Assembly: GCA_945873395.1 (NCBI GenBank)
Contig: CAMCCW010000003.1
Span: 1-38,472, forward strand
DNA: 38,472 nucleotides
Direction of reading: 5' to 3'
Source of the DNA: an uncultured Lactobacillus sp.
Lineage (GTDB): Bacteria; Bacillota; Bacilli; Lactobacillales; Lactobacillaceae
Below the pieces are notes generated by a model. The model ran no database searches, was not told where the DNA came from, and saw only the letters and a program-made list of their open reading frames with translations. Below are positions 17,732 to 33,959 of this stretch, in pieces. Numbering within the stretch: position 1 is the first letter of the stretch; every line of letters begins with the position of its first letter. The position numbers and the translations under genes are program-made.

Positions 17732-17782
17732 AACTTGATCATTGATTATTGGGCTGATCTTATGCTAAGATGGGTCTCGTTA

Positions 17783-17881
17783 TAAAGCAAATTCCCGATA
17801 GGATTCACGCTTGCCGTGAAGATGCCTTGTAACCGCAACTATAAAACTGTTGAAAAGTTTCACTAGAATATGGGGGAATTA
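17783..17881 (+). ncRNA. SMK box (SAM-III) riboswitch upstream of metK
   Basis: ATTCCCGATAGGAT...GATGCCTTGTAACCGC...GGGGGAATT. The TTCCC anti-SD is complementary to the GGGGGAA SD of metK. Confidence 0.88.
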
Positions 17882-17888
17882 AATTAAA

Positions 17889-19076
17889 ATGGCAGAAAAA
17901 CATTTATTTACATCAGAATCAGTCTCTGAAGGACACCCGGATAAGATCGCTGACCAAATCAGTGATGCCATCCTGGATGCTATGCTCGAACAAGACCCAG
18001 ACGCCCGGGTTGCCGTCGAGACCTCAGTAACGACTGGCCTGGTCCTAGTCTTCGGTGAAGTATCCACTAAGGCTTACGTTAATATCCAAAAGATCGTCCG
18101 GGATACCATTCGCGAGATCGGCTACACCGATGGTAAGTACGGCTTCGATGCCGACAACTGTGCCGTCATCACTGCAATTGACGAACAGTCACCCGACATT
18201 GCTCAGGGGGTCGATGACTCACTGGAAACCCGTGAAGGGGACGGCGATCCGCTGGACAAGATCGGTGCCGGTGACCAGGGGCTGATGTTTGGTTACGCTA
18301 CCGATGAGACGCCAGAATACATGCCACTCTCATTGATGCTGAGCCACAAGCTGATGCAAAAGATTGCTCGCCTGCGTAAGGACGGGACCATCCCATACCT
18401 GCGGCCAGATGCTAAAGCTGAGGTAACGATTGAGTATGACGAGAATGATAAGCCATTACGGGTTGATACCGTTGTCTTAAGTACTCAACATGATCCAGAA
18501 GTTTCACTGGATCAGATCAAGAAGGACGTTAAGGAACAAGTCATCAAAGCAGTTATTCCTGCTAAGTACCTGGATGATGAGACCAAGTACTTCATCAACC
18601 CAACTGGCCGTTTCGTTATCGGTGGACCTCAAGGGGATGCTGGCTTGACTGGTCGGAAGATCATTGTTGATACCTATGGTGGAGCTGCTCACCATGGTGG
18701 TGGGGCCTTCTCTGGTAAAGATGCCACTAAGGTTGACCGTTCTGCTAGTTATGCCGCCCGTTACATCGCCAAGAACCTGGTTGCCGCGGGCTATGCCAAG
18801 AAGCTGGAGATCCAGGTAGCCTACGCTATTGGGGTTGCTGAACCAGTTTCCATTGCCATCGATACTTACGGTACTGGAACCAAGAGCGATGATGAACTGA
18901 TTGCGGCGGTACGGAAGGTCTTTGATCTGCGGCCAGCCGGAATTATCAAGATGCTCGACCTCAAGCGGCCAATTTACAAACAGACGGCGGCTTATGGTCA
19001 CTTCGGCCGGACCGATGTCGATCTGCCATGGGAACACCTGGACAAGGTTGACGAATTAAAGAAGATTTTGGGCTAA
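17889..19076 (+). CDS. metK: S-adenosylmethionine synthetase
   Basis: [57 protein letters not shown]-like. Confidence 0.98.
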
Positions 19077-19138
19077 TTGTTCACGGCGTGCCTTGCAATC
19101 ACAAGGTGGGCTTGTTAGAATAATTGTTAAATATTTTG

Positions 19139-19365
19139 ATCGTAATAGAAGTAGTAGCTGGGGTGATGATCTTCAGAGATCCTGCGGAGCTGTGAGCAGG
19201 AGATCGTTACCAGTGAACTCCTCTAGGTGATTACTGCTGAAGCTAGTAGGCAGTGACGTCTTCCGCGTTAAGGAGCCAAGTGCTATGGCTAGACCATAGA
19301 AAACGGGTGGTACCGCGGATTAATTTTCGTCTCGTAGAAGGACTTTCTACGGGACTTTTTTATTA
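19139..19365 (+). ncRNA. T-box riboswitch (tRNA-Leu), leuS leader
   Basis: GGGTGGTACCGCGG T-box sequence (19305-19318); terminator GTAGAAGGACTTTCTACGGGACTTTTTT; GAA-CTC in the stem I specifier loop (CTC at 19218-19220 = Leu). Confidence 0.93.
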
Positions 19366-32623: not shown

Positions 32624-33287
32624 GCTTGCAAACTTTTTTGATTTCATATACCGGGTTGGGATCATGTTGATCCTATTTTTATTGATCCAGTTACCGCCGG
32701 TGGCAATTTCAATTGCTAATCGGCACCCGAATAATCTCTGGTTAACCATCTTGCTGTTAGCGATCTTCCTGATGATGTTTGCCTTCATCATTGGCTGGGC
32801 CCAACGATTGTATAATCAGTACAATCAATTGCGGGGCGGCCAATTTCGAATTGGAATGGTAATACTGGGTTATTTTGTATTGTTGCTTGGGATGGACTTC
32901 TTTGGCCAATTGAATATGTTACTGTTCCACCAGACACAGACCGCTAATAACCAAGCAATTGCCCAGATGCTTACCCATAACCAATTAGCAACCGTGGTTT
33001 TTGCTATCTCGTCCTTTACGTTGACGCCGGTAGCTGAGGAGTTGATCTTTCGGGGCGTACTGACGAATCTGTTCTTTAAGCCCGATTGGTTTTGGCCAAA
33101 GATAATTTTGTCGGGATTGGTCTTCTCGTTTGCGCACATCAGTACCAACATTGTCAGCTTTTGTACCTATTGTTTCATGGGGATGGTGCTGGCATATGTC
33201 TACCGGAAGTCCGGTTCGTTAAAGAACTCCATTGCCCTCCATGCTCTTAACAATATCGTGGCGATGGCGGCGCTTTTAAAAATTTAA
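32616..33287 (+). CDS. CPBP-family intramembrane metalloprotease
   Basis: TPVAEELIFRGVLTNLFF...SGLVFSFAHISTN...NSIALHALNNIVA (EExxxR, FxxxH, HxxxN). Confidence 0.93.
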   Translation: MSKLANFFDFIYRVGIMLILFLLIQLPPVAISIANRHPNNLWLTILLLAIFLMMFAFIIGWAQRLYNQYNQLRGGQFRIGMVILGYFVLLLGMDFFGQLNMLLFHQTQTANNQAIAQMLTHNQLATVVFAISSFTLTPVAEELIFRGVLTNLFFKPDWFWPKIILSGLVFSFAHISTNIVSFCTYCFMGMVLAYVYRKSGSLKNSIALHALNNIVAMAALLKI

Positions 33288-33295
33288 AATAGCAC

Positions 33296-33324
33296 TTGTA
33301 ATCGCTTCCATGAGGTGGTATATT
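33296..33324 (+). promoter_or_regulatory. Candidate sigma-70-type promoter for a non-coding transcript
   Basis: TTGTAA, 17 bp, TATATT. Confidence 0.55.
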
Positions 33325-33329
33325 AAAGA

Positions 33330-33638
33330 CGTGGAAGGAAATAAGAACGAAAGAGGACATGATCCGTCATGGTACCTCCCACTTGATCAAAGCGCCGAAG
33401 GAAGTTATGGAGTAGGCTAGAAGCAACGTAAGTGTGACCAGAAATATCGATTAAAGTTTTGAGTTCGTTTAAGTTCTGTAATAAGGTCACCAGGGTGCAC
33501 TTTGACAGTGGTAAGAAATGCGACTTTGCGGAAGTTTAGAATCAAAGAGATAATGAAATGTAGTTAGTTCCAGTGCAAAGTGGCAAGATTCCTTCCGTGA
33601 GTTATTGAAGGACGCAGGTATTGTACCTGCGTCCTTTT
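33330..33638 (+). ncRNA. Candidate structured ncRNA of unknown family
   Basis: No ORF above the track cutoff on + strand. 5' CGTGGAAGGAA pairs with 3' TTCCTTCCGTG (11 bp incl. G-U); internal GTGACC/GGTCAC and GAGG..CATGA-TCCG-TCATG..CCTC hairpins; ends at an 11-bp terminator stem plus TTTT. Confidence 0.6.
33609..33638 (+). terminator. Rho-independent terminator of the candidate ncRNA
   Basis: GGACGCAGGTA-TTG-TACCTGCGTCC-TTTT. Confidence 0.9.
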
Positions 33639-33665
33639 GTGTATAATAGGGCATGAGGTGATTAG

Positions 33666-33959
33666 ATGTTTTTATCAACCGAGGCTTTTCCGCAGGCCCA
33701 CCGGATCTTAGGAATTGTTAACGCAACTAGCCATTTGATGTTACCGAGCGAGGAGATTGATGCCTTTGAATCTATGGACCAGCTTTTTAGTGACGTTGAG
33801 GCCAAGCTCAAGTCACGGGCGACGGCTAAGGGGGCTGATGGGGTGGTCAATGTCCGCTTCACTACCAATGTTGCCAACGTTCAGGTTGCTCCGAAGTTTC
33901 TGGTGGTCACCGGGTATGGCACGATGATTCAATTGATTGATAAGAAAAAGGGACTGTGA
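33666..33959 (+). CDS. YbjQ/UPF0145-like protein
   Basis: ILGIVNATSHLMLPSEEIDAFESMDQLFSDVEAKLKSRATAKGADGVVNVRFTTN. TATAAT -10 at 33642 and GAGGTG RBS. Confidence 0.65.
   Translation: MFLSTEAFPQAHRILGIVNATSHLMLPSEEIDAFESMDQLFSDVEAKLKSRATAKGADGVVNVRFTTNVANVQVAPKFLVVTGYGTMIQLIDKKKGL

Follow-up and report, generated by a model that had tools for sequence, protein, structure and literature searches.

The window analysed here, a 38,472-nt stretch of contig CAMCCW010000003.1 from a lactic acid bacterium of the gut, an uncultured Lactobacillus sp., carries a structured RNA that, on balance, we regard as a trans-acting, catabolite-repressed RNA of an undescribed family. It occupies the gap at 33288-33665, between the end of a gene for a CPBP (Rce1-like, PF02517) protein at 33287 and the start of a YbjQ-like gene at 33666, where the + strand holds no coding ORF over the RNA. 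Judged from its sequence elements, all on the + strand, the RNA appears to be a stand-alone gene with its own promoter and terminator. The predicted transcript spans 33330-33638, its ends (a start at about 33330 and an end in the T-run) being deduced from these two signals, and a covariance-model match to 33330-33599 (248.7 bits) delimits the conserved body. A first-pass annotation of the same DNA had proposed a stand-alone structured non-coding RNA of unknown family; this proposal is upheld by the negative Rfam search, the covariation across two genera, the RNA's own promoter and terminator and the changing neighbours described below.

The promoter TTGTAA-17-TATATT lies where the first-pass annotation had placed it, with the -35 box TTGTAA at 33296-33301 and the -10 box TATATT, preceded by an extended TG, at 33319-33324. 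Homologous promoters have the form TTG-AA, a 17-nt spacer (kept by all but one of the 48 promoters matched) and a -10 box close to TATATT, before which TG stands in most. Overlooked at first reading was a predicted cre (CcpA) box, TGTAATCGCTTCCA (33297-33310), which overlaps the -35 box in such a way that TTG-AA doubles as its left half; it is the main clue to how the RNA is regulated, and it stands at the promoter, as expected of a CcpA-regulated non-coding RNA. A relaxed cre consensus was found in 47 of 49 homologous promoters, while 0.04 were expected from the background (the rest of the same loci), the exceptions being L109, with one mismatch, and L073. The latter (G013:C39:28480-28688) is a degenerate copy, in which the promoter elements and the cre box are damaged and core parts are altered or missing, which suggests recent decay. 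In the 6S RNA genes of lactic acid bacteria, cre boxes over the -35 region were judged inhibitory, and the 6S RNA of L. lactis is up 3-fold without ccpA (PMC8414754). By analogy, CcpA may repress the RNA promoter when a preferred sugar is present, the step from cre box to repression being based on the position of the predicted box. Since this box is built into the promoter, the RNA is probably made once preferred sugars run out.

Downstream, the intrinsic terminator (33608-33638) consists of a 12-bp stem (33608-33636; first described as 11 bp) followed by TTTT. Almost every copy has a terminator-like hairpin on the 3' side, in some about 60 nt further away. That the RNA serves the YbjQ-like gene as a 5' leader or attenuator is very improbable. 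In many species ybjQ does begin 66-156 nt past the RNA on the same strand, but the terminator separates the two, ybjQ has its own TATAAT (at 33642 in the window, as claimed by the earlier annotation), and the gene was not detected just downstream of one in three Limosilactobacillus copies or of any copy in a second genus, g3. Thus the constant downstream gene expected of a cis-leader or riboswitch is lacking, the downstream genes being variable. The upstream side is steadier in Limosilactobacillus, where the CPBP gene lies 45-131 nt from the RNA at nearly all loci (about 1.2 kb in two), while only some of these loci have YbjQ on the other side. In g3, in which genes were named from their translations, without a family search, five copies (L109-L113) are located just downstream of alsD (alpha-acetolactate decarboxylase), preceded in three of these five loci by acetolactate synthase; of the other two, one is near cardiolipin-synthase-like and aminotransferase genes and one near a gene for a sugar-binding protein. 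Every g3 copy retains the promoter, the cre box (with the single mismatch in L109) and the terminator. Because the neighbours change while promoter, cre box, RNA and terminator stay together, the locus is best read as a stand-alone gene and not as a leader. The RNA of g3 adjoins als genes and RsaD of S. aureus targets alsS (PMC9266662), so a link with acetoin metabolism offers a lead.

DNA similarity to the window RNA was detected in 43 of 54 Limosilactobacillus genomes. A covariance model (R1) built from 27 sequences likewise found a single copy in each of 43 of the 54 species genomes of this genus (37 of the 45 of high quality), including divergent copies scoring 69-106 bits. A second model, R2, applied to 401 Lactobacillaceae genomes of 40 genera, matched Limosilactobacillus and all seven sampled genomes of g3, with zero matches in the 38 other genera. 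A search at a weak threshold in 40 genomes, of which 10 were Limosilactobacillus that had given no hit and 30 came from other genera, returned chance-level matches alone, and the RNA was on none of the plasmids searched. A DNA pattern for the P5 hairpin (see below), applied to one genome per GTDB species, gave 24 loci. Almost all of them bear the label Limosilactobacillus or Lactobacillus/Lactobacillaceae, and the species represented include L. reuteri, L. vaginalis, L. pontis, L. oris, L. panis, L. frumenti and L. caviae; this strict pattern did not reach g3, for which the covariance model was required. One short contig with the pattern is labelled Clostridiales and is probably a misbinned fragment.

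No copy could be detected in seven high-quality Limosilactobacillus genomes (G004, G010, G014, G017, G018, G019 and G047), and other sequence, devoid of a cre box, follows their best CPBP homologue; since some species do without it, the RNA is not essential to the genus. For another genome, G037, a natural deletion was considered and rejected, the stretch examined containing no intergenic DNA whatsoever. Within 3.6 kb of this genome (G037:C1, locus L135) every stop codon abuts either a tRNA or the start codon of the following gene, and a real 6S RNA match is missing as well. The assembly seems to have been stripped of its intergenic DNA, so the absence of non-coding elements from it is meaningless.

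The RNA is strongly structured. Its single-sequence fold (-90.1 kcal/mol) is more stable than those of all 100 shuffled versions (-72.5±4.8 kcal/mol; z -3.7). In the alignment of 48 copies from both genera, 91.1% of the pair cells hold standard pairs (36-45% in slid controls), 26 pairs show two-sided changes (239 two-sided cells vs. 83±8 after shuffling) and the covariation score is 0.269 vs. 0.126±0.005 in shuffles, with slid controls at or below 0.092; the covariation thus exceeds what chance would give. An alignment of 41 copies gave similar values (91.0% standard pairs vs. 37-45% in slid controls; covariation 0.224 vs. 0.113±0.005 shuffled). Both alignments were fitted to the model and therefore lean towards the structure, while the P3 duplexes compared between species were folded without a model-fitted alignment.

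In the resulting layout, helix P1 closes the domain, hairpins P2 and P5 lie inside it, and the long arm P3 ends in a three-way junction from which P3a and P4 branch. P1 pairs GTGGAAGGAA (33331-33340) with TTCCTTCCGT (33589-33598), with compensations of G-C by A-U; the closing helix described before, CGTGGAAGGAA (33330-33340) with TTCCTTCCGTG (33589-33599), is indeed in the sequence. So are the CATGA-TCCG-TCATG hairpin inside GAGG/CCTC, which forms the variable P2 (33353-33378) with two-sided changes in most pairs, and the GTGACC/GGTCAC arm (33434-33439/33485-33490). The latter belongs to P4 (33423-33498), an arm with a GCA..C/G..UGC base, a GUAAG internal loop and a GUGACC/GGUCAC helix that bears a variable end loop; P4 shows G-C to A-U changes in 11 sequences. 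P3a (33394-33417) is a small GCC...GGC hairpin with a purine-rich loop, in which C-G to U-A and other changes occur.

One arm of the first-pass annotation, GCACTTTG (33497-33504) with CAAAGTGGC, proved to be mispaired: CTTTGACAGTGG (33500-33511) pairs with CCACTTGATCAAAG (33379-33392), forming P3, and the partner of GCAAAGTGGC is GCGACTTTGC (33520-33529). P3 is the most strongly covarying helix, with two-sided changes in 12 of 12 model pairs, and its strands vary widely between species while staying complementary (CCATCTGAATGAG/CTCGTCAGATGG vs. TTATTATTTGG/CCAAATGATAA). P5 (33520-33584) is the hairpin GCGACUUUGCGGAA...UUCC...GCAAAGUGGC, with 98-99% paired cells; in divergent copies it is altered on both strands, e.g. 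UUACUUUGCG/CGCAAAGUAA in L078. Together with the strands joining P3a and P4 (AGAAGCARCGUAAG and CAGNGUGC), P5 is the most conserved part of the RNA. A pseudoknot, P6, may form between GAAUC in the P5 loop (33539-33543) and GAUUC (33587-33591), before the last P1 strand. Its register is common to most Limosilactobacillus copies and has co-changed in L074, L075, L077 and L078; per-sequence significance was not reached and the pairing was not evident in g3, and we regard P6 as a plausible but tentative element in Limosilactobacillus.

The near-invariant junction strands and the tentative pseudoknot are reminiscent of aptamers and ribozymes, which raises the prospect of a free transcript that senses a small molecule or is catalytic. 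We consider this quite unlikely, as the RNA has neither an expression platform nor a constant linked gene and no Rfam riboswitch or ribozyme matches it. A dual-function RNA or small mRNA deserves very little credence: an ORF of 22-24 codons (MRQEIYT..LVGQKQHKSNL) recurs in one divergent clade, but no ORF is common to the family and single-base indels break the frames. In L074, L075 and L077 the short ORF, M(R/Q)QEIY..L..E.LVGQKQ.K, runs over P2-P4 and tracks conserved RNA motifs; it is probably not coding.

The family is new to the copy of Rfam searched. As cmscan had been named as a check on the first-pass call, the window was compared with Rfam, and no family matched the RNA at gathering thresholds, nor did any meaningful hit appear up to an E-value of 10; nine divergent copies searched along with the window gave scattered sub-threshold matches, none recurrent at the RNA. 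The sole Rfam hits of the window, both above gathering scores and far from the RNA, are a T-box leader (19130-19337) and a SAM-III (SMK box) riboswitch (17775-17891). RNase P RNA (RF00010/RF00011) had no match in the RNA region; in the window's own genome (G000, 93% complete) neither model matched anywhere. Lacto-usp RNA (RF01710) also gave no match in the RNA region, the genus-wide RF01710 search yielding no control match either. No earlier report of the family was found in the open-access literature, to which the search extended (subscription papers and supplements lay outside it).

The earlier suggestion of a divergent 6S or Lacto-usp RNA did not hold. In favour of a 6S RNA one may cite the cre box, which covers the -35 region of 6S genes in about a third of lactic acid bacterial species (PMC8414754), but RF00013 found no match at 33200-33750 up to an E-value of 10, the window RNA is branched (with covarying P1-P5) where 6S RNA is rod-shaped with a central bulge, and its flanking genes encode CPBP and YbjQ proteins, not rarA/uspA products. 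In L. vaginalis, RF00013 matches another locus, between usp-like and rarA-like frames, and the DNA of this 6S gene matches 52 of the 54 genomes (in G037 over just 24 bases). The Rfam model found no 6S RNA in the window's own genome, where it was detected by DNA similarity instead (G000:C107:1035-1239, sharing 86% identity with that of L. vaginalis). Since canonical 6S RNA coexists at a different locus here and in nearly all relatives, we reject the 6S identity and regard a divergent 6S or Lacto-usp RNA as extremely improbable.

Starting from what is directly supported (the fold, promoter, cre box, terminator, independence of neighbours and difference from 6S RNA), we infer expression of the RNA, the direction of CcpA control and protein binding. 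When a preferred sugar is present, CcpA on the cre box that overlaps the -35 element would block the promoter; upon exhaustion of the sugar the RNA would accumulate and would act through its folded core, binding a protein or ribonucleoprotein by the logic of 6S RNA and not through a linear pairing seed. This mode of action is the most likely, its protein binding being a guess from conservation, and it is favoured because the conserved positions cluster in junctions and hairpins, not in an exposed seed rich in pyrimidines. Purines prevail in the conserved unpaired segments, and invariant positions are found in the junctions and P5; such a pattern would resemble that of protein-binding or tertiary-folded RNAs. 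A further proposal, which as a whole we think unlikely, is a new class of ribonucleoprotein or of 6S-like global regulator. In this view a structured RNA specific to the lineage would work beside 6S RNA and, as the cells leave growth on plentiful sugar, titrate or retarget a core protein machine; in Limosilactobacillus this may be RNA polymerase, the ribosome or an RNase.

The main rival to folded-core action, possible though doubtful, is a CcpA-repressed base-pairing sRNA similar to RsaI, whose exposed seed silences or activates carbon-metabolism mRNAs and whose fold serves as a stabiliser. The fold of the window RNA is larger and more constrained than that of a usual pairing sRNA. Many copies have in P2/P3 a CUCCC stretch that could bind ribosome-binding sites by pairing, but it is mostly paired in the model and absent from several clades, the conserved unpaired segments are Shine-Dalgarno-like and not anti-Shine-Dalgarno, and no Rfam sRNA family matches the window RNA. 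The precedent is RsaI itself, which is repressed by CcpA, derepressed in glucose starvation and acts by pairing with mRNAs, in two cases at the Shine-Dalgarno sequence (PMC9266662).

Limosilactobacillus, L. reuteri included, gains an RNA family that is well supported and for which a structure and a working covariance model are now available. The cre box provides a testable prediction, that the RNA is switched on when glucose is gone, and carrier and non-carrier species constitute a natural comparison. Should the RNA bind a core machine, it would join 6S RNA as a second global RNA under catabolite control.

Among known systems, GOLLD, ROOL and OLE are larger than the window RNA. Like it they are highly structured bacterial RNAs, but none of them matched it in cmscan; they are described as large ornate RNAs that form homo-oligomeric complexes, GOLLD being partly of Lactobacillales origin (PMC12286853). 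RsaI of S. aureus shares with the window RNA CcpA repression that is released once glucose is gone, in our case as a prediction; it differs in acting by mRNA pairing (PMC9266662), whereas the fold and conservation of the window RNA point elsewhere. The 6S RNA of lactic acid bacteria (RF00013) is similar in being a stand-alone stable RNA gene with a promoter and a terminator, to which about a third of the species add a cre box that covers the -35 region; that of L. vaginalis has a cre box inside the coding region only (PMC8414754), unlike the window RNA with its cre box at the promoter. The two also differ in form and place, 6S RNA being a rod with a central bulge encoded near rarA and uspA, and the window RNA a branched molecule of another locus.
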